64,000 nucleotides of DNA, taken from the NCBI GenBank assembly GCA_017933995.1, contig JAGBKI010000020.1:62001-126000 (forward strand), written 5' to 3'. This DNA is from Bacteroidaceae bacterium (lineage in GTDB: Bacteria; Bacteroidota; Bacteroidia; Bacteroidales; Bacteroidaceae). Shown here in pieces: positions 12,168 to 63,244 of this stretch. Numbering within the stretch: the stretch's first letter is position 1; each line of letters opens with the position of its first letter. The notes beneath the pieces are model-generated. The model was not told where the DNA came from. It was given only the letters and a program-made list of their open reading frames with translations, and ran no database searches. The translations under genes were made by a program, and so were the position numbers.

Positions 12168-13049
12168 ATGAAAAAGATTTTCCTTTTCGTGGCCCTCGTG
12201 GCTGCAACCGTGCTGACCTCCTGCAACGGAGGCGGCAAAACAGGCGACGGACAGATTGACTCGCTCAGTTATATGATTGGTATGGCCAGCGGCAACCCCG
12301 AGCAGATTGCGCAATATCTCGCTATGCAGGGCAGCGACTCCACCTTTGTCGAGGATTTTGTCAAAGGTCTGAAAGAAGGTATGTCCATCGGCGACAACAA
12401 GAAGAAGTTAGCCTATTTCCAAGGCGTGATGGCAGGTATGCAGACCCAGAAGCAACTCTTCAGCAACGTGGAGGCTCAGATTTTCGGATCCGACAGCACA
12501 CGCCACCTCAGCGAGACGCAGTATCTGCTCGGCCTCAGCGACGGGCTAAACCGCAAAACCAAAATTGTTATTAACGGTGTGAAATGCGGTCCCGAGCAGG
12601 CAGCCGAATATGTAGACTCCGTCTTCCGCAAACTGAGCGACGAAGCTCTGGCTCGCCAGTACGCCAAGGAGAAGAAAGCCTCCGAGGAGTATATGGCCAA
12701 GATTGCCAAGACTGCGGGAGTGAAGCCACTGGGCAACGGTGTCTACTACAAAGTCATAACCGAGGGTGCAGGTGAAAAGCTCACCGCCGACGCCACCGCC
12801 CGAGTCAAGTATGAAGGTCGCCTCATCGACGGCACCGTATTCGACCAGAGCAAGGAAGGCGAGCCCTCTGATCTACGCGTGGGCGGCGTAGTGCCTGGCT
12901 TCAAGGCCGCACTGCTCGCTATGCCCGTCGGCTCTGTTTGGGAGGTCTACATTCCCTACGATCAGGCATACGGCGCCAACCCCATGGGCGATCGTCTACC
13001 CGCTTTCTCTACCCTCATCTTCAAGATTGAACTGGTGGGGAAGAAGTGA
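12168..13049 (+). CDS. FKBP-type peptidyl-prolyl isomerase 2 (lipoprotein)
   Basis: 293 residues starting MKKIFLFVALVAATVLTSC, a lipoprotein signal with Cys19. The N-terminal helical domain begins IDSLSYMIGM, and a charged helix precedes the C-terminal FKBP domain (about residues 200-293: VKYEGRLIDGTVFDQS, VVPGFKAALLAMPVG, YIPYDQAYGANPMG). It is probably a periplasm-facing folding factor. Codon use is less GC-rich than its neighbours (ATT, TAT, AAG frequent). It is followed by a large inverted repeat (13053-13166) before the third paralogue. Confidence 0.9.
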   Translation: MKKIFLFVALVAATVLTSCNGGGKTGDGQIDSLSYMIGMASGNPEQIAQYLAMQGSDSTFVEDFVKGLKEGMSIGDNKKKLAYFQGVMAGMQTQKQLFSNVEAQIFGSDSTRHLSETQYLLGLSDGLNRKTKIVINGVKCGPEQAAEYVDSVFRKLSDEALARQYAKEKKASEEYMAKIAKTAGVKPLGNGVYYKVITEGAGEKLTADATARVKYEGRLIDGTVFDQSKEGEPSDLRVGGVVPGFKAALLAMPVGSVWEVYIPYDQAYGANPMGDRLPAFSTLIFKIELVGKK

Positions 13050-13052
13050 ATG

Positions 13053-13166
13053 AAAAGGTTTAATGAAGTTTAAGAGGTTTAAGAGGTTTAAGCCTTGCGG
13101 AACGAGGCTGGACGGATTAAACCTCTTAAACCTCATTAAACCTCTTAAACCTCTTAAAAAAACCTT
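13053..13166. repeat. Inverted repeat with 9-bp-repeat arms and GC-rich core (copy A)
   Basis: The left arm (about 13053-13091) is tandem AGGTTTAAG, and the right arm (about 13117-13166) is tandem TTAAACCTC with one 10-nt unit. They flank a core that starts GCCTTGCGGAACGAGGC. The core matches the reverse complement of the core in copy C (26880-27001). It would form a long hairpin between FKBP 2 and FKBP 3. Confidence 0.8.
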
Positions 13167-13172
13167 TCAACC

Positions 13173-14093
13173 GTGAAACGTCTCATTCTCCTCGCCCTGC
13201 CCCTGCTGCTCGGTCTCGCGGCTTGTCAGCACAAGGAAATTCCGCAGGCGCGCCTGAAGACGAAACTCGACACGCTGGCCTACTGCCTCGGTGCCAGCCA
13301 GGCGCCCGACAGGGTCGGCATCGGGCAGATGCTGGCCAACGTGCACAGCGACAGCACCCGCATCGAGGACTTCCTCAGCGGCCTCTACGAAGGGCTTTCC
13401 AAAGGCGCGGAAGCCTACGAGGCGAACAAGACCGACGCCGCGTCGCTGGCCTACAACCAGGGCATCAGTATCGGCATCGAACTGCTCGACCGCTCCATAG
13501 CCCGCACCGAGCACTACCTGCAACTCGGCGACAGCCTCCACCTGCCCGTAGACGAGTTCGCGGCGGCTTTCGCCGACGTCGTACACGGCAAAATCTCCCT
13601 CCTCGTGGGCGGTAAGCCTGCCACACGCGAGCAACTCTCCGACATCGGCGGGCGGCTGATGGAAACCGTCGCCGACGAACGCGCCGAGGCACTCTACGGC
13701 GCACAGAAGCGAGCCGGACTGGACTACATCGCCCAAAAAACCAAGGAAGAGGGCGTCCGTCCGCTCCAGGACGGCATATATTATAAGGAGTTGCAGACCG
13801 GCCACGGCGCCAAGCCCACAGCCAGCAGCACCGTGCAGGTGCGCTACGAGGGGCGCTTCATCGACGGCAAGGTGTTCGACGCCACCGCCAACCACGGCAC
13901 GAACGAGTACGACGAGTTCAAGGTGGGCCAGGTCATAAAAGGCTGGCAGAAAGCCCTCGCGCAGATGCCCGTCGGCGCCAAGTGGGAGGTCTACATCCCC
14001 TACGACCAAGCCTACGGCCCCGCCGGCAACCCGCCCGACATGCCCCCCTACTCCACCCTCATCTTCACGATGGAACTAATTGCAATCAAGTAA
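13173..14093 (+). CDS. FKBP-type peptidyl-prolyl isomerase 3 (lipoprotein)
   Basis: 306 residues starting MKRLILLALPLLLGLAAC, a lipoprotein signal with Cys18. The N-terminal helical domain starts LDTLAYCLGASQ. The C-terminal FKBP domain (about 210-306) has VRYEGRFIDGKVFDAT, QVIKGWQKALAQMPVG and YIPYDQAYGPAGN. Same fold and order as its neighbours, with a longer insert before the FKBP domain. It contains the CATATATTATAAGGAG motif at 13775-13790 (encoding IYYKE), strikingly AT-rich for this GC-rich gene. The next paralogue follows after 30 nt. Confidence 0.9.
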   Translation: MKRLILLALPLLLGLAACQHKEIPQARLKTKLDTLAYCLGASQAPDRVGIGQMLANVHSDSTRIEDFLSGLYEGLSKGAEAYEANKTDAASLAYNQGISIGIELLDRSIARTEHYLQLGDSLHLPVDEFAAAFADVVHGKISLLVGGKPATREQLSDIGGRLMETVADERAEALYGAQKRAGLDYIAQKTKEEGVRPLQDGIYYKELQTGHGAKPTASSTVQVRYEGRFIDGKVFDATANHGTNEYDEFKVGQVIKGWQKALAQMPVGAKWEVYIPYDQAYGPAGNPPDMPPYSTLIFTMELIAIK

Positions 14094-14123: not shown

Positions 14124-15038
14124 ATGAAACTCCGCATCATTCTCCTTTTCTGCGCCGCCGCGCTCATCGCCCCCACGGCCAGCGCACAGCGCAAAGGCGG
14201 CAAGTCGCGCCGCCAGCAGCAGACCGAAGCCACACAGTTGGCCACGGCCATCGCCTCCCTCGACACCATCATCACCTCCACCCCCGTCGCCGCCGACAGT
14301 TTCAGCATAGCCGCCGGTGCCGCTCTCGCACCCAGCCTGCGCCAGTACGCCGTGATGCAGATGGGCGTGGACGAGAAGTATATGGAAGACTTCATCCGCG
14401 GCCTGCGCACTGCCCCCGATGCCGAATACGCCAAGAAGATGAGCGCCTTCGCCGCCGGTCTGACCATCGGCCAGCAGAACCAGAACAACGTCATCCCCGG
14501 CCTCAACCGCAGCGCCACGGGCAACGACACCACCGCCTACCTCGTCGAGCCGCTCTTCCTTGACGCCTTGGCGCAGGGCGTCGAGGGCACCGGCGCACTC
14601 ACCGCCGACCAGGGCCGCGCCATCGTAGACCGCCAGGTGGCCTACCAGTCGCAGGTGTACAACTACGCCAACGCCCGCTTCCTCGTCGAGAACGCCGTGC
14701 GCGACAGCGTCGTCACCCTTCCCAGCGGTATGCAGTACAAAGTGCTACAGCGCGGCCAGGGTGCCGTGGCCACCGACAGCAGCACCGTCGAGGTGAACTA
14801 CGAAGGCCACCTCATCGACGGCACCGTGTTCGACAGCAGCTACCAGCGCGGGCAGACCGCCTCCTTCAAGCCCACGCAGGTCATCAAGGGCTGGACCGAG
14901 GCACTCACCATGATGCCCGAAGGCAGCGTCTGGGAACTCTACATCCCCTACAACCTCGCATACGGCGAGCAGGGCAACCGCAACATCCCCGGCTTCAGCA
15001 CCCTTATCTTCAAGGTTGAGGTCGTCAAAGTTAATTGA
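14124..15038 (+). CDS. FKBP-type peptidyl-prolyl isomerase 4 (periplasmic)
   Basis: 304 residues with a signal-peptidase-I type leader (MKLRIILLFCAAALIAPTASAQ) and no lipobox. A basic RKGGKSRRQQQ stretch follows the cleavage site. The N-terminal helical domain differs most from the other three. The FKBP domain at about 210-304 has VNYEGHLIDGTVFDSS, QVIKGWTEALTMMPEG and YIPYNLAYGEQGN. It is probably soluble in the periplasm. It is followed by a core-and-arm inverted repeat and then cysS. Confidence 0.9.
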   Translation: MKLRIILLFCAAALIAPTASAQRKGGKSRRQQQTEATQLATAIASLDTIITSTPVAADSFSIAAGAALAPSLRQYAVMQMGVDEKYMEDFIRGLRTAPDAEYAKKMSAFAAGLTIGQQNQNNVIPGLNRSATGNDTTAYLVEPLFLDALAQGVEGTGALTADQGRAIVDRQVAYQSQVYNYANARFLVENAVRDSVVTLPSGMQYKVLQRGQGAVATDSSTVEVNYEGHLIDGTVFDSSYQRGQTASFKPTQVIKGWTEALTMMPEGSVWELYIPYNLAYGEQGNRNIPGFSTLIFKVEVVKVN

Positions 15039-15135
15039 CCATTGAACATTGACCATTGACCATTGGCTGTCGCGACGAAACACGTGCCGGAAGGCAACGG
15101 TCAATGGTCAATCATCAATGGTCAATGTTCAATAA
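15031..15135. repeat. Inverted repeat with 7-bp-repeat arms (copy B)
   Basis: The left arm repeats ATTGACC/ATTGAAC (15031-15067) and the right arm repeats its complement (GGTCAAT; about 15101-15135). The loop contains CGTGCCGGAAGGCA, shared with copy C (CGTGCCGCAAGGCA). The left arm overlaps the last codons of FKBP 4, and the repeat ends 15 nt before cysS. Confidence 0.8.
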
Positions 15136-15149
15136 ATACACCTCTTGAA

Positions 15150-16622
15150 ATGCTAACCATCTACAACACCCTCTCCCGCCGCAAGGAGGTGTTCCGCCCG
15201 CTGGTGGAAGGGCACGTGGGCATGTACGTCTGCGGCCCCACCGTCTACGGCGACGCCCACCTGGGCCACGCACGCCCCGCCGTGACGTTCGACACCCTCT
15301 TCCGCTACCTCCGCCACCTCGGCTATAAAGTGCGCTACGTCCGCAACATCACCGACGTAGGCCACCTCGAACACGACGCCGACGAGGGCGAAGACAAGAT
15401 AGCCAAAAAGGCACGCCTCGAACAACTGGAGCCGATGGAAGTGGCACAGTACTACACCAACCGCTTCCACGACGCCATGGCCGCCCTCGGCTGCCTGCCG
15501 CCCAGCATCGAGCCGCACGCCAGCGGACACATCATCGAGCAGATAGCTCTCGTACAGCAGATTCTCGACGCGGGCTACGCCTACGTCTCCAACGGCTCCG
15601 TCTATTTCGACGTCGAGAAATACAGCCGCGACCACCACTACGGCAAACTCTCCGGGCGCAACCTGGACGACGTCATCAACGCCAGCCGAGAACTCGACGG
15701 CGTGGGCGAGAAGCGCAACCAGGTGGACTTCGCCCTGTGGAAGAAAGCCCAGCCCGAGCACATCATGCGCTGGCCCTCGCCCTGGAGCGACGGCTTCCCC
15801 GGCTGGCACTGCGAATGCACCGCCATGGGGCGCAAGTATCTCGGCGAGCACTTCGACATACACGGCGGAGGCATGGACCTCGTCTTCCCCCACCACGAGT
15901 GCGAGATTGCGCAGGCCGTGGCCAGCCAGGGCGACGAAGCCGTGCGCTACTGGATGCACAACAACATGGTCACCATCGGCGGGCAGAAGATGGGAAAGAG
16001 CCTCGGCAACTTCATCACGCTGTCGCAGTTCTTCAGCGGCCAGCATCCGATGCTCACCCAGGCTTTCAGCCCCATGACCATCCGCTTCTTCATCCTCCAG
16101 GCCCACTACCGCTCCACGCTCGACTTCTCCAACGATGCCCTCATCGCCTCCGGCAAAGGGCTGGAACGCCTGTTCGAGGCGATGAAACAACTGGAGCGCA
16201 TCGACGTCGTGGCCGACGCGCAAATCACCGAGCAATACGCGCAGGATTTGTCCGACAAGTGCCGCGAGGCTATGGACGACGACCTCAACACCCCCATCGT
16301 CATCAGCCACCTCTTCGACGCCTGCCGCCTCATCAACCAGCTGGCCGACCGCAAGGCCAGCATCTCGCCCGCCGGACTGGAAGCCCTCGCCGCCACGATG
16401 AAGACCATCGTCGGCGACATCCTCGGCCTGCGCAGCGAGGCCGAGCAGGGCAACGCCGAACGTGAAAAGAGTTTCGCCGGCGCCGTCGACCTCCTGCTCG
16501 ACGTGCGCGCCCAGGCCAAGGCCGCCAAGGACTGGGCCACCAGCGACCGCATCCGCGACAGCCTCGCCGCCCTCGGCTTCCAAATCAAGGACACCAAGGA
16601 AGGCGCCACCTGGAAACTCTGA
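15150..16622 (+). CDS. cysS: Cysteine--tRNA ligase
   Basis: 490 residues; the start at ATG 15150 ([15 protein letters not shown]) is set by family alignment, since the longer frame would translate the preceding inverted repeat. It charges tRNA-Cys with cysteine in the cytoplasm. Motifs: [17 protein letters not shown] (zinc Cys and the HxGH signature), [17 protein letters not shown] (zinc ligands) and KMGKSLGNF (the KMSKS loop). Length is normal for the family. It may be read through from the FKBP cluster, with the hairpin between them modulating expression. Confidence 0.97.
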
Positions 16623-21499: not shown

Positions 21500-21599
21500 C
21501 TAATTCTGCAAATTAAGGCTTAATTTCGCCAAACTAAGGCTTAATTTGGCGAAACTTAGGCTTAGTTTGTACAAATTAAGCCTTAATTTGCAGAATTAG
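21500..21599. repeat. 100-bp array of five 21-bp near-palindromes (array 1)
   Basis: Units have the form CTTAATTT-core-AAACTTAGG with 4-bp cores CTGC, CGCC, GGCG, GTAC, GCAG in order. The end segments form a perfect 27-bp inverted repeat (CTAATTCTGC... / ...GCAGAATTAG). A second element of the same length and layout is at 62527-62626. It is not a CRISPR: there are no unique 30-nt spacers. Confidence 0.8.
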
Positions 21600-21728: not shown

Positions 21729-22137
21729 GACGCTGAAAGCGTCGCCCCCACTGTAACCGCAGGTGCGCGAAGTGCAACGGAGCGCACCTGCGGCAGGCAG
21801 CACACCACCAAATGCACGCCATTGCGTGCCCCACCCGCGATAAGAGCCACTCCGTCCCGTCGTGGGGGACGCTGCCAGCGTCCGTAGCACGCCACATCCT
21901 TGCCGCAGGTGCGCTCCGTTGCACTTCGCGTACCTGCGGTTACAGAAAGGGAGACGCTGCCAGCGTCTTACACACAACGATGAACAAGGAAACAAGGTGC
22001 TATATAAGCAAACGGACGAGGCTATGACGCTGAAAGCGTCGCCCCCTCTGTAACCGCAGGTACGCGAAGTGCAACGGAGCGCACCTGCGGCTGGCAGCAC
22101 ACCACCGAATGCACGCTGGAAGCGTGCCCCACTCGCG
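21729..22137. repeat. REP/BIME-like cluster of palindromic repeats
   Basis: Three related modules. Copies at 21729-21793 and 22026-22090 share GACGCTGAAAGCGTC, then CCGCAGGTGCGC...GCGCACCTGCGG. The middle copy at 21868-21967 is inverted and bounded by two GACGCTGCCAGCGTC palindromes. There are also GCACGC/GCGTGC segments after each. No gene is supported between 21461 and 22345. A diverged solo copy is at 10249. Confidence 0.75.
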
Positions 22138-26879: not shown

Positions 26880-27001
26880 GGGAATTAGGAGTTAGGAATT
26901 GGGCTGCGCGTAATTGGAATGAGAAATTAGGAGTTGGGCTGCGCGGAAAAACGTCGCGCCCCGTGCCGCAAGGCAATTCCTAATTCCTAACTCCTAATTC
27001 A
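26880..27001. repeat. Inverted repeat with 7-bp-repeat arms and GC-rich core (copy C)
   Basis: The right arm (26974-27000) is tandem TAATTCC/TAACTCC. The left arm is its complement (AATTAGG, AGTTAGG, AATTGGG), present twice, each followed by GGCTGCGCG. The core contains CGTGCCGCAAGGCA. The right arm overlaps the ddl stop codon. The core matches the reverse complement of the core in copy A. Confidence 0.8.
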
Positions 27002-27988
27002 ATCCTTGAGCCGTCCCTCGATGATGTCGGTGAGGACGTCCTTGATGTCGAGACCGGCGGCGCGCACCTGCTGGGGGATGAAGCTGGTGGCGGTCATGCC
27101 GGGCGTGGTGTTGATTTCGAGCAGGCAGATTTCCTCCTGCCCGGGCTCGCCGCGCAGGATGTAGTCGGTGCGCGTGATGCCGTAGCAGCCGAGGCGGCGG
27201 TAGACGGCGCGGGTCAGTTCCTGCACGCGGCGGGCGGTGTCGGGATGGATGCGGGCGGGGGTTATCTCGTCGACCTTGCCGTTGTACTTGGCGTCGTAGT
27301 CGAAGAACTCCTGGTCGGTGACAACCTCGGTGATGGGGAAGGTGACAAGTTCGCCCGCGCCACGGTAGCAGCCGCAGGTGACCTCGGTGCCGGTCATCAT
27401 GGCCTCGACCATCACCTCGTCGTCCTCGGCCAGCGCGGCGTCGATGGCGGCTGCGAGCTGGTCGGCGGTCTTCACCTTGGTGACGCCGAAACTGCTGCCG
27501 CCGGCGTTGGGCTTGACGAAGCAGGGCAGGCCGAGACGCTCCACGATGGCCTCGTCCGTGGGGCGCGCCTCGCCCTTGCGCAGCAGCAGGCTGTCGGAGA
27601 CGGTGAGGCCGGGCTGCGTGCGCAGCAGGGAGCAGAGGGCGTGTTTGTTGAACGTCAGGGCCTCGACAAGCACGCCGCTGGTGGAATAGGGCATACGGAT
27701 GAGGTCGAAGTAGCCTTGCAGCAGGCCGTTCTCGCCGGGCGTGCCGTGGATGGTGATGTAGGCGAAGTCGAAGGCGTGGTGGCCGTCGGGGGCATTGAAA
27801 CTGAAGTCGTTGCGGTCGATGGGGTACTCGCCGCCCTCGTAGCGGGCGTGCCAGTCCTGGCCGTGCAGCACGACGACAACGGGCTGGTACTTCGTCTTGT
27901 CGAGGAAGGAGAGGATGCCCTCGGCGCTGCGCAGGGAGACGTGGTATTCGGAGGAGTCGCCGCCGGCGACGATTGCGATGGTTTTCAT
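26999..27988 (-). CDS. ddl: D-alanine--D-alanine ligase
   Basis: 329-residue ATP-grasp ligase that joins two D-alanines for peptidoglycan precursors in the cytoplasm. Motifs: IVAGGDSSEYHVSLRSA, HGTPGENGLLQGYFDL, LPCFVKPNAGGSSFGVTKV, EDDEVMVEAMMTGTEVTCG, RTDYILRG and LLEINTTPGMTATSFIPQQ. Length is typical. It lies downstream of rluD (45-nt gap) in a minus-strand operon. Its last codons are part of inverted repeat copy C. Confidence 0.95.
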   Translation of the reverse strand: MKTIAIVAGGDSSEYHVSLRSAEGILSFLDKTKYQPVVVVLHGQDWHARYEGGEYPIDRNDFSFNAPDGHHAFDFAYITIHGTPGENGLLQGYFDLIRMPYSTSGVLVEALTFNKHALCSLLRTQPGLTVSDSLLLRKGEARPTDEAIVERLGLPCFVKPNAGGSSFGVTKVKTADQLAAAIDAALAEDDEVMVEAMMTGTEVTCGCYRGAGELVTFPITEVVTDQEFFDYDAKYNGKVDEITPARIHPDTARRVQELTRAVYRRLGCYGITRTDYILRGEPGQEEICLLEINTTPGMTATSFIPQQVRAAGLDIKDVLTDIIEGRLKD

Positions 27989-40381: not shown

Positions 40382-42565
<2,184 letters not shown>

Positions 42566-42593: not shown

Positions 42594-42677
42594 TTTTAGG
42601 TTCTTAGGTCTTTAGGCTTGAGGGAACCTGCATTCTCGGCAGCAACTCCCAAAACCTACAAACCTAAGAACCTAAAA
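42594..42677. repeat. Inverted repeat with 8-bp-repeat arms (copy D)
   Basis: The left arm TTTTAGG-TTCTTAGG-TCTTTAGG (42594-42616) pairs with CCTACAAA-CCTAAGAA-CCTAAAA (42654-42677). The loop is itself a hairpin (GGGAACCTGCATTCTCGGCAG). It lies between susD and GH97. Confidence 0.75.
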
Positions 42678-42691
42678 TTTATCTGCTATTT

Positions 42692-44233
42692 TCAAATGGG
42701 ATCTTCAGCCAATTCTGGCGTTGTCAGTACATGGGAGCTGGGGATATCGACAAAGCGCTTGCTTTCCGTCCAGCCATACTTACCGAGAACGGACTTGGCC
42801 AGCCCCGTCCGGCAAAGATCGGTATAGCGCAGTCCCCATTCGGAGCAGAGTTCCATACGGCGCTCGTCCAGGATGTCATCAACCGTCACGTTTGTGATGC
42901 GGGGCATTTCCGCACGCTGACGCACTTCGTTGAAAGGAGCGTCACCATTCTGCCCCAAGCGTACTTTTGCCTCGGCATTCATCAGCAGCACCTCGGCGTA
43001 GCGGATGACGCGGACGTTGTTGTTGCGTCCCCACGTCGTGGCCGTACCTGTCATCTGGTTGATCGGCAGATAAGCTTTGCCGTTGTAAATTTGGGGAATG
43101 TCGGCAGAAGTTGCCGCTTCAACATTAAGGCGACCGTCGGCATCACGCTTTGGAGGCGTGCCGTTGATGATGTACTGCTCACGGGTATATTCACCGGCAA
43201 CGAGGAAACTCGTCTCACGGCGCACCGTCTCACCACGGTCATCAGCCCATTGCAGGAAAGCGGGGTGGTATCTCATGAACAACCAACCAGCCGTCGACTT
43301 GTTGTTCACGAGATCTTTTACAGAGGCTCCTTGGTAGTTGAACCATTGGTCAATACCAATGTAATCGCCCATGGCGTTGCCAAAATCAGAGACTTGGACT
43401 TCCATCAGAGATTCGTCACAGAGCTTGCCGGGAATCTTGAACAGTTGGTAATAGTCACTATAGAGACTGAAGCCACCGTTATTGATGATGTCATCCGTAA
43501 AGTCTTTTACCTTTGCGTAATCGCCCTTGAGCAAAGCCACGCGGGCGGCCAGTGCTTCGGCGGTATACTTGGTGTAAGCACCCATGTGTTCCATCTGGTT
43601 GGGACGCTTGGCCTCCATAAAGGGGATGGCTGATTCAAGGTCGGCTATGATGTAGTCGTACACCTTCTCCACCGTACTGCGACGGAACGAGGTCTGGTCG
43701 GAAGAAGCATAGATAACACAAGGGCCGAAGAAGGTAGCCAAGTGGTAGTAAGCCCAAGCGCGAATGGTCTTGATTTCACCGATGTAGCTCAAATACTTGT
43801 TGTGATCGGCCGTGCCGGGTGTCAGATTCTCGCCAAAGCGATCCAGCGTGGCAAGGTTGCTGTTGCAGTCAAAGATGATGTTGTACATGTTAGTCCACAT
43901 CAGCGGTACAGACCAGAAGACAGTGGGGTTCTGATAACCTCCGTGGTAGCCGAACTTCAGCGCGTCAGCCTGGTCATTTGTGCGACCCGAACACATATCG
44001 TCGTCGCGTCCCGACCACAGCATTCCTAAAGCCCAGTGGATGCCCGTCGACCTCATCCGTCCGTAGCAACCGATGACGGGCTTGTACATATCGTCCGCTA
44101 TCGTGTAGTCAATCTCATCGACGGCGAGTGTGTTCTCCACGTCAATGTCTATATAGTCGTTGCAGCCAGTCCCCATAAAGAGCATTGCTCCCGAGGCAAG
44201 TGCAAGAACTAACGTTTTCTTGAACAGTTTCAT
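42692..44233 (-). CDS. susD: SusD/RagB-type nutrient-binding lipoprotein
   Basis: 513 residues. Lipoprotein signal MLFMGTGCNDYIDID. The TPR-rich SusD fold is seen in LGMLWSGRDDDMCSGR, YIGEIKTIRAWAYYHLATFF, AALEAL-like helices (EALAARVALLKGDYAKVKDF), and the C-terminal VRVIRYAEVLLMNAEAKVR plus DILDERRMELCSEWGLRYTD motifs. It forms a lid on the SusC transporter at the cell surface and binds the glycan. Symbol is used generically for the role. Gap to susC is 42 nt. Confidence 0.95.
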   Translation of the reverse strand: MKLFKKTLVLALASGAMLFMGTGCNDYIDIDVENTLAVDEIDYTIADDMYKPVIGCYGRMRSTGIHWALGMLWSGRDDDMCSGRTNDQADALKFGYHGGYQNPTVFWSVPLMWTNMYNIIFDCNSNLATLDRFGENLTPGTADHNKYLSYIGEIKTIRAWAYYHLATFFGPCVIYASSDQTSFRRSTVEKVYDYIIADLESAIPFMEAKRPNQMEHMGAYTKYTAEALAARVALLKGDYAKVKDFTDDIINNGGFSLYSDYYQLFKIPGKLCDESLMEVQVSDFGNAMGDYIGIDQWFNYQGASVKDLVNNKSTAGWLFMRYHPAFLQWADDRGETVRRETSFLVAGEYTREQYIINGTPPKRDADGRLNVEAATSADIPQIYNGKAYLPINQMTGTATTWGRNNNVRVIRYAEVLLMNAEAKVRLGQNGDAPFNEVRQRAEMPRITNVTVDDILDERRMELCSEWGLRYTDLCRTGLAKSVLGKYGWTESKRFVDIPSSHVLTTPELAEDPI

Positions 44234-52493: not shown

Positions 52494-52622
52494 GAATAAA
52501 ATTTTCTTTGGCCTAAATAAAATTTTCTTTGGCCTAAATAAAATTTTCTTTGGCTTAAATAAAATTTTCTTTGGCTTAAATAAAATTTTCTTTGGCTTAA
52601 AGAATTTTTTCTTTGGCTTGAA
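52494..52622. repeat. Array of six 21-bp repeats (array 3)
   Basis: Unit TTAAATAAAATTTTCTTTGGC (last copy diverged), 21 nt apart, six copies. The AAATAAAATTTTCTTT part is nearly palindromic. Same unit length and TTAA...GGC ends as arrays 1 and 2. It lies in the gene-free stretch between tetR and dnaX. Confidence 0.8.
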
Positions 52623-52629
52623 AAAAAAT

Positions 52630-53171
52630 TCGCGAAGCGCTGATAGGAAATCCGCAAACCCAGTGTAAGCCGTCGGCACGGGATGCGCGTGTTTTTGCAA
52701 AGGGCGGTGTGCACTTTAGGGGTGGCTGTGGACAAAGCGCAAAGGGAAAACGAACTTTTTTATACCGTATATATAATAATAGCACATGGAAAAGCGTTTA
52801 TAAGATAGACGGTGCGCGCACGGCGACAATGCCTCCGCACACCGGCAGCGGCTTTTTGTAAAACGCAACGAACGTGCTTATGGTGCATTCTACCCCCCAC
52901 CCTACCCCCCGCCCCGACGTCCTGCAATATCTGCGTGCCTTTGCCCGCTCCTATCAGCCCAGCAAGCAGGAGGAAGCACCCGCTTGGCCCGTCGCCACAT
53001 GCTGACGGACAAGGACGACTTGCATCTTAGTTTTTTCATTTATCGGGAACGCCAGTTCCCAAGCAACCGAACGCGCGAAAGAACCGAAGAACCTAAGAAC
53101 TGAGAAGCCCAAAAACCAGTCTCCCCCCACCCGAAATCCCCGCCAAGGCACACGCCAGGGGCGCAAAACAC
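52630..53171. other. Gene-free spacer upstream of dnaX
   Basis: No supported gene. It contains an AT-rich GTATATATAATAATAG segment at 52768-52783 and, at 53079-53102, a lone AGAACCTAAGAAC-type stretch resembling one arm of inverted repeat copy D. Confidence 0.5.
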
Positions 53172-62526: not shown

Positions 62527-62626
62527 TTAATTCTGCAAACTTAGGCTTAATTTGTACAAACTTAGGCTTGATTTCGCCAAATTTAGGCTTAGTTTGTAGA
62601 AACTTAGGCTTAATTTGCAGAATTAG
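62527..62626. repeat. 100-bp array of five 21-bp near-palindromes (array 2)
   Basis: Same layout and length as array 1 at 21500-21599. Core tetramers in order are CTGC, GTAC, CGCC, GTAG, GCAG, inside CTTAATTT-core-AAACTTAGG units; the end segments TTAATTCTGC and GCAGAATTA are the same. It lies in the gene-free stretch 62272-63244. Confidence 0.8.
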
Positions 62627-62835: not shown

Positions 62836-63069
62836 GGCGGCTCGGCAGTGAAAATGAAAAAACTGCGTTTTTCCTTTTTCACTGCGCTCGCCTTGCACCA
62901 CTTTGCTTCGCGAAGATAGGCGGCGGCTCGGCAGTGAAAATGAAAAAACTGTGTTTTTCCTTTTTCACTGCGCTCGCCTTGCACCACTTTGCTTCGCGAA
63001 GATAGGCGGCGGCTCGGCAGTGAAAACGAAAAAACTGCGTTTTTCCTTTTTCACTGCGCTCGCCTTGCA
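62836..63069. repeat. Three 86-bp direct repeats upstream of metK
   Basis: Units start at 62836, 62922 and 63008 with GGCGGCTCGGCAGTGAAAA. Each has a hairpin (GCAGTGAAAA...TTTTTCACTGC). The first two are complete to GCTTCGCGAAGATA; the third ends at CTCGCCTTGCAC and then continues into the metK -7 box. Only single-base differences between copies. Confidence 0.85.
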
Positions 63070-63070
63070 C

Positions 63071-63078
63071 TATCTTTG
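63071..63078 (+). promoter_or_regulatory. -7 box of metK
   Basis: TATCTTTG matches TAnnTTTG right after the third 86-bp repeat. The two earlier copies have CCACTTTG in the same place. Confidence 0.5.
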
Positions 63079-63084
63079 CACCCG

Positions 63085-63244
63085 AAAATATTTGTGGACA
63101 GATTTGGCTGCTTGCAACCACGGTAAAAAATGCTAAAACTTGGTCAGAACAAGGGGGCGACGCGCCCCGCACCACAGTTCAACGCATACGAGAGGAATGG
63201 CAGAGCCGAGGAAGTCCGCCATTCCTTATTATATATACACGCGT
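63085..63244 (+). promoter_or_regulatory. Long, possibly structured metK leader
   Basis: About 160 nt between promoter and start, with a GGGGCGACGCGCCCC hairpin (about 63155-63170) and GGAATGGC...GCCATTCC (about 63195-63226) directly before an AT-rich TTATTATATATAC stretch and the ATG. It does not match any SAM riboswitch I can recognise. Confidence 0.4.

Follow-up and report, generated by a model that had tools for sequence, protein, structure and literature searches.

Foldback (FB) transposons of Drosophila and similar elements have inverted arms in which short repeats stand in tandem, with a variable middle between the arms; they are eukaryotic and much larger than the ones described here. 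Among bacteria, the Rickettsia palindromic elements are short palindromes that occur in several families per genome, many of them in frame within unrelated genes to which they add a peptide (PMC10969869, PMC3733652). REP and REPIN sequences are likewise many short palindromes, situated mostly between genes (PMC3733652). Within the Bacteroidales, Porphyromonas gingivalis has a MITE named BrickBuilt in which tandem repeats and inverted ends occur together, with 19 copies in one genome; it is reported to consist of one 23-nt direct-repeat array between a leader and a tail, with small inverted ends, and to be always intergenic (PMC4596501). Lastly, direct repeats of the heptamer TAACTGA are found between genes in some Bacteroidetes, Cyanobacteria and Beggiatoaceae (PMC4679880), and the introduction of that paper mentions an earlier survey in which heptanucleotides were the commonest long simple repeats of most genomes, with slippage proposed as their origin.

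Here we describe the inverted repeat at position 13053 (copy A) of the window, by which we mean the whole stretch of 64,000 nucleotides that was analysed, together with its relatives in the same genome and in other Bacteroidales. We conclude that copy A probably belongs to a set of palindromic repeats of the foldback type, which would spread as whole elements and persist at places where they are harmless. The original prediction had described copies A, B and C as inverted repeats with complementary tandem arms and a common GC core. Indeed, these copies are real and above chance. The tandem arms of copy A and their complementarity were confirmed, with units of 9-10 nt of the AGGTTTAAG type and pairing that spans positions 13053-13155, and so were the 7-nt arms of copies B and C. 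Copy A begins after a gap of only 3 nt from the end of the upstream FKBP gene, and the called start of the second FKBP gene follows 17 nt past its paired arms, both genes being co-directional. The stop codon of the third FKBP gene (TGA, 15036-15038) is located within the first ATTGACC unit of copy B, and the ddl stop codon is overlapped by a paired arm of copy C. A fourth element, copy D, is flanked by a SusD gene and a GH97 gene, both on the minus strand. By eye, no T run of an intrinsic terminator follows the stem in the sense strand of copies A, B and C. When the whole window was scanned, no Rfam match above the gathering score was obtained at copies A, B, C or D; the sole match was a SAM-II riboswitch at 63088-63146.

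Coordinates of copies A to D and of the genes that border them (positions in the window; genes as called by our own gene caller)
Feature	Position	Strand	Details
FKBP-type peptidyl-prolyl isomerase gene	12168..13049	+	upstream of copy A; Pfam FKBP_C, FKBP_N
Copy A, left arm	13053..13094	+	AGGTTTAAG-type tandem units, 9-10 nt
Core GCCTTGCGGAACGAGGC of the original prediction in copy A	13092-13108		extends into the left arm
Copy A, unpaired GC core	13095..13113	+	
Copy A, right arm	13114..13155	+	CTTAAACCT-type tandem units
Second FKBP-type isomerase gene	13173..14093	+	downstream of copy A
Third FKBP-type isomerase gene	14124..15038	+	upstream of copy B
Copy B	15034..15126	+	ATTGACC 7-nt arms, 15034-15068 and 15092-15126
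Cysteinyl-tRNA synthetase gene	15150..16622	+	downstream of copy B; Pfam tRNA-synt_1e, DALR_2, CysS_C
Copy C	26882..27000	-	7-nt AATTAGG/TAATTCC arms, 26882-26903 and 26979-27000
Core GCCTTGCGGCACGGGGC of copy C	26958-26974	-	
D-alanine-D-alanine ligase (ddl) gene	26999..27988	-	upstream of copy C in transcription sense; Pfam
GH97 gene	40382-42559	-	flanks copy D
Copy D	42594..42677	-	8-nt TTAGGTTT-type arms
SusD gene	42692-44233	-	flanks copy D

The host assembly, labelled G000 in our genome comparisons, is a draft of 66 contigs that is 83.7% complete and probably comes from near the Prevotellaceae. To detect tandem-arm hairpins, we searched 464 kb of it (the window plus 20 stretches of large contigs, all fetched stretches carrying L-numbers) for paired arms that are each tandemly periodic. 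This gave 35 hairpins, of which two were GC-rich palindromes that were dropped later, leaving 33. At the same threshold, hairpins of any kind were absent from one second-order Markov resampling of the 464 kb. By adding 338 kb fetched around AGGTTTAAG matches, the total rose to 66 hairpins in 802 kb, and removal of the two GC-rich palindromes without tandem arms (L095 and L097) resulted in 64 curated elements, with a median arm of 39.5 nt and a median core of 54 nt. Nine arm families could be named: 30 elements had AGGTTTAAG arms, 13 AAAAGTT, four AATTAGG, three TTAGGTTT, three AGTTAATC, two ATTGACC, two GGGGAGTTA, two ATCTCAGTT and one ACAATAA, while four had other arms; the copy A family is over-represented here, given that AGGTTTAAG matches had guided the choice of 20 of the 41 stretches. 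The idea that arm sequence changes from copy to copy thus stands for differences between families and fails within the copy A family, whose arms recur in 30 of the 64 elements. Across the host genome there were 157 matches to copy A, a figure that covers both strands, single arms and copy A itself, and the three-unit AGGTTTAAG pattern was present in one of 201 family genomes, namely that of the window. In relatives, the same hairpin scan gave two hits in 200 kb of G004 and none in 171 kb of G019, so that in these samples the density of elements differs much between relatives. The two ATCTCAGTT palindromes (L105 11861-12038 and L130 18999-19179) pair without mismatch along their arms, and their middle is long and AT-rich, in contrast to the GC cores of other families.

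Other repeats were also noted in the window. Palindromes of 21-nt units around CAAACTTAGGCTTAATTTG, at 21500-21599 and 62528-62625 and also in L086-L088, L090-L093 and L102-L104, form another repeat family with several copies in the host genome. A long GC-rich inverted repeat at 21902-22091 has arms like CCGCAGGTGCGC...GGTTACAG, and similar repeats are present in L086, L087, L092, L095 and L104. A 21-nt tandem repeat with the unit AATAAAATTTTCTTTGGCTTA occupies 52495-52630 (6.4 copies, 93% match), and an 86-nt tandem repeat (2.8 copies, 62836-63079) directly precedes the SAM-II riboswitch.

The core proved to be shared to a lesser extent than had been proposed. The pattern GCCTTNCGGNACGNGGC matches copies A and C with no mismatches (C on the minus strand) and copy B with two, and the core of copy B has GCCTTCCGGCACG on the minus strand. 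Across the 64 elements, an exact GCCTTSCGG was found in the core region of seven (five AGGTTTAAG, one ATTGACC and one AATTAGG), as opposed to a mean of 0.1 and a largest value of 1 in 40 rounds with shuffled cores. The overlap of cores across three families is therefore real and above chance for A, B and C, but it involves a minority of the elements, and a core common to all arm families was rejected as a rule. A k-mer search over the cores detected weak common motifs only, and the main core motif of the copy A family, CCGTCCGGC, was present in 19 of its 30 copies. In the whole host genome, GCCTTNCGGNACG had ten exact matches, seven of them in tandem-arm hairpins and three elsewhere, as judged from their surroundings. 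With one mismatch allowed, the counts on the two strands were 51 and 74, which is not far above the 46 and 50 of a reversed control.

Since complementary arms within each copy had been taken as a sign that one arm is copied onto the other, we compared arms within and between copies. In the AGGTTTAAG family, the mean alignment score was 29.2 within a copy and 30.3 between copies (permutation p = 0.92, n = 30); the AAAAGTT family scored 22.5 and 20.9, respectively (p = 0.10, n = 13). The in-gene copies of the ATTGACC family, which are described below, have a change in the third unit of the left arm, counted from the core, that removes an in-frame TGA. The mirror of this change was seen in the right arm of none of 38 copies (four of the 42 in-gene copies, which lack a third unit on the left or its partner on the right, were left out). 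A left arm without a stop follows from how the in-gene copies were chosen; the failure of the right arm to follow is not explained in this way. In the AGGTTTAAG and ATTGACC families, the two arms of a copy thus show no sign of one having been copied onto the other and are independent. In the 62 elements located between co-directional genes, the arms matched at 88.5% of 2606 aligned positions; on the sense strand, the 299 mismatches comprised 50 G-U, 87 A-C and 162 others. G-U was below A-C (p = 0.002), so the transcript has no excess of wobble pairs.

Corresponding junctions were inspected in other genomes, with G012 and G019 as the closest relatives found. The spacer between the third FKBP gene and cysS, which contains copy B in G000, is 20 nt long in G012 and 25 nt long in G019, with no hairpin in either. 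The ddl junction, where copy C is part of a spacer of ~136 nt, measures 9 and 31 nt without a hairpin in G012 and G019, the Ddl proteins of which are each 82% identical to that of G000. When 30 of 53 matching genomes were sampled at this junction, two were positive in the hairpin scan: G000 and, with a different 7-nt unit, G246. Weaker tandem arms were seen by eye in G254 and G104. The copy A junction of G012 and G019 is occupied by a smaller hairpin of AGGTCTTAT units, and that of G003 has TAAGGTTT-type units by eye. No target-site duplication was seen by eye at ddl, cysS, alaS or pulA, where the compared sites are highly divergent; in alaS and pulA, the insert seems to have taken the place of a few host codons instead of being added to them.

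The ATTGACC palindrome of copy B was followed in a collection of 84,980 species genomes. The pattern ATTGACCATTGACC-N20-50-GGTCAATGGTCAAT matched 59 loci, all titled Prevotella, Prevotellaceae, Bacteroidaceae, Bacteroides or Bacteroidales, and by our own count these represent 30 accession prefixes or assemblies. A four-unit ATTGACC-type pattern with at most one mismatch was present in 25 of 399 family genomes including G000, which represent 8 of 30 genera. Coding stretches lie on both sides of the palindrome at 42 of the 59 loci, the other 17 not being scored as in-gene. For all 42 in-gene copies, the net length is a multiple of three and no stop occurs, and their left arm is read in one common phase in the 42 peptides; counted by flanking peptides, they represent about 27 distinct sites. 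In addition, there are two in-frame cases in the host genome: an AATTAGG element interrupts the gene of a phospholipase-D-type protein, and a GGAGTTA element that of a 4Fe-4S protein.

We scanned 23 of the 42 in-gene host proteins, and all 23 could be assigned to a family, in some cases with a score under the curated threshold. Hosts above the curated NCBIfam cut-off were alaS, topA, purL, glpK, pulA, asnB, rsmH, carB, mfd, rlmD, a RecQ-family helicase and an RND permease; purM, rapZ, a dihydroorotate dehydrogenase subunit, a beta-glucuronidase-like and a GlcD-like protein were below it, and six further hosts were identified by Pfam. The insert in glycerol kinase constitutes extra residues compared to the solved glycerol kinases, while the structure match of AlaRS stops short of the insert. 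In alaS, four separate records share the in-frame palindrome at an identical place. Among relatives of G304, the short form was seen there in 27 of the 29 that were readable (of 57 matching genomes, 30 were fetched, and the reading pattern missed or misread one of these loci); G461 has a short insert of CAATTGA-type units there and G445 another insert. For pulA, 18 of 23 readable relatives were uninterrupted and five had inserts of different kinds (five of 28 loci, which the reading pattern missed or misread, were left out): the ATTGACC palindrome in G304, a palindrome of TCAGTTC-type units in G458, a GC-rich palindrome in G462, a short hairpin in G467 and a 9-nt tandem insert that hardly folds in G469. 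The pulA gene of G458 may be broken, since there is one stop codon in the matched range. The in-frame palindromic or tandem inserts of this type I pullulanase segment vary by species (L262 to L289, L205, L207 and L226).

The location of the elements relative to genes in the host genome was strongly biased. As many as 62 of the 64 lie between co-directional genes, compared to 47 of the 94 hairpins without tandem arms from these stretches (Fisher p about 2e-11; 3 of 97 such hairpins, lying inside genes, were left out), and 262 of 370 gaps of at least 80 nt were co-directional. In transcription sense, these 62 elements start a median of 4 nt past the stop codon and end a median of 14.5 nt before the next start, and for 51 of the 64 both gene neighbours are at most 60 nt away; single gene borders may be off, since the calls stem from our own simple hexamer model. 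Mere tolerance of the elements would predict many copies between convergent genes and does not explain this bias, so that the elements may act in the operon transcript or insert in a targeted manner.

The host draft genome (83.7% complete) had five matches to Y1 transposases, with no tandem-arm hairpin in their flanks of ~1.5 kb, and it had no match to the reverse transcriptase family RVT_1. A RAYT-like transposase or a reverse transcriptase was rejected as the mover, as nothing of the kind was linked to the elements in this incomplete draft. Spread by viruses was likewise rejected, a viral contig collection having 0 ATTGACC palindromes; three stretches in it match an 18-nt AGGTTTAAG pattern.

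Several explanations can be weighed against these data. The original prediction favored a rewriting of arms, in which one strand is copied onto the other by hairpin-primed synthesis or template switching so that pairing is kept while the sequence changes. Arms that are unrelated across families and paired within each copy would be expected in that case, as would the different units that relatives have at the same junction or gene segment (ddl, pulA). The long copy at L105 10313-10531, in which irregular units near the core are closely mirrored by eye, and the slightly higher within-copy similarity of AAAAGTT arms also point that way. However, AGGTTTAAG arms are no more alike within a copy than between copies, the stop-avoiding change of the left arm is never mirrored, and 299 of 2606 aligned positions are mismatched. 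Moreover, the prediction itself had named other copies with the same arms as the result that would refute rewriting, and such copies make up the largest family. We therefore regard rewriting as very unlikely. The original prediction had also considered strong selection for an RNA hairpin, and a protection or separation of cistrons in operon mRNA has been hypothesised for REP sequences. A stem after the stop codon that protects or separates cistrons, with an arm sequence that hardly matters, would fit the close distance to stop and start codons, the position between co-directional genes, which only half of the non-tandem hairpins have, and the hairpins of other units at the same junctions of some relatives. 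The types of mismatch give this no support, the difference between G-U and A-C going the opposite way, and mirrored variants are lacking in the AGGTTTAAG family. In addition, the B and C junctions of close relatives do without a hairpin, and the same kind of element is present inside coding frames, where a junction function cannot apply. We therefore consider selection for RNA hairpins doubtful.

Alternatively, polymerase slippage and template switching could create each hairpin in situ, with no movement between sites. Different units at one place across species (pulA, alaS, ddl) would be in agreement with such a local birth, as would the prevalent heptanucleotide repeats of the earlier survey, for which the introduction of PMC4679880 relates the proposal of slippage. 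A local process would not yield one unit each time, though, while one unit is found at dozens of loci in a single genome, and the ATTGACC palindrome in 30 assemblies and at about 27 in-gene sites. This makes a local origin unlikely, if somewhat less so than rewriting. That the elements are artefacts of assembly or binning is barely credible: the host is an incomplete draft and most of the named matches are titled as metagenome assemblies, but 51 of the 64 elements fit tightly between two called genes and the alaS insert has an identical in-frame place in its four records.

The spread of whole elements is the reading we prefer. It builds on the recurrence and family structure of the elements, the element-free sites at B, C, alaS and pulA, the in-frame insertions and the independence of arms in two families, all of which were observed directly. 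Short repeats of about 70-260 bp would have spread through Prevotella-like Bacteroidales genomes as whole, non-autonomous elements, presumably moved by an enzyme acting in trans. Each family has its own unit of 7-11 nt, running in opposite directions in the two arms, and a core that is usually GC-rich. The arms would pair as both are built of the family unit; this unit structure pairs arms of any length, and copying between arms is needless. Arm length and unit order presumably drift separately, most simply by slippage. The new copies that survive would be those at the stop-codon edge between co-directional genes, such as A-D, or those in frame in length-variable segments of conserved proteins, segments that may be surface loops and in which the inserts would be translated. 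Several observations count against the spread of whole elements: neither a mover nor a target duplication was found in the searches described above, host codons are seemingly replaced, the bias for co-directional genes goes beyond tolerance, different units at pulA and ddl could mean local birth, the AAAAGTT comparison gave p = 0.10, and the copy A junction is not empty in G012 and G019. It is also conceivable, albeit doubtful, that these are bacterial foldback elements with exchangeable arms that are directed to translation-compatible places, i.e. stop-codon operon junctions and protein segments in which in-frame palindromes of different arm families come to lie from species to species. If so, there would be a dedicated, transcription- or translation-linked mode of placing them, with a steady supply of new peptide segments in essential enzymes.

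The preferred reading, that of repeats spreading as whole elements, has implications for both genes and proteins. If it is right, the elements change operon junctions, can supply the stop codon of a gene and extend enzymes, alanyl-tRNA synthetase and topoisomerase I among them, by in-frame peptides. They would then offer a tractable system to study the movement of non-autonomous palindromes and the ability of proteins to cope with foreign peptides inserted again and again at a single place. Neither a description of these elements nor a paper containing their encoded peptide strings was found in the open-licence full texts of PubMed Central, a body of literature outside which most subscription journals fall. 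The initial view that no named element has this layout was nevertheless too strong, since Rickettsia palindromic elements, BrickBuilt and Foldback elements share parts of it. As in the Foldback elements, inverted tandem-repeat arms surround a variable middle; in contrast, the present elements are bacterial and much smaller, with no transposase link or target duplication found at the sites inspected. BrickBuilt similarly joins tandem and inverted parts in a Bacteroidales repeat, but its arms are not complementary tandem arrays, whereas our elements have units of 7-11 nt and mutually complementary arms. REPs are 20-40 bp long and linked to RAYTs, unlike the longer, tandem-built stems in this study, for which no linked Y1 transposase was found in the host draft genome. 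The heptamer repeats share the 7-nt tandem units and the intergenic location, yet they are described as direct repeats, while ours are paired inverted arrays around a core. Like the Rickettsia palindromic elements, the families described here are palindromic and present at many unrelated loci, and at the sequence level all 42 in-gene copies keep the frame, 23 of them in genes that could be assigned to a protein family. They differ in their arms, which are tandem arrays of 7-11-nt units, and in their Bacteroidales host, the comparison being one of descriptions only. If our reading is right, Prevotella-like gut and rumen bacteria would own a counterpart of the Rickettsia palindromic elements, one whose tandem-built arms are unusual and of which a genome has several families.
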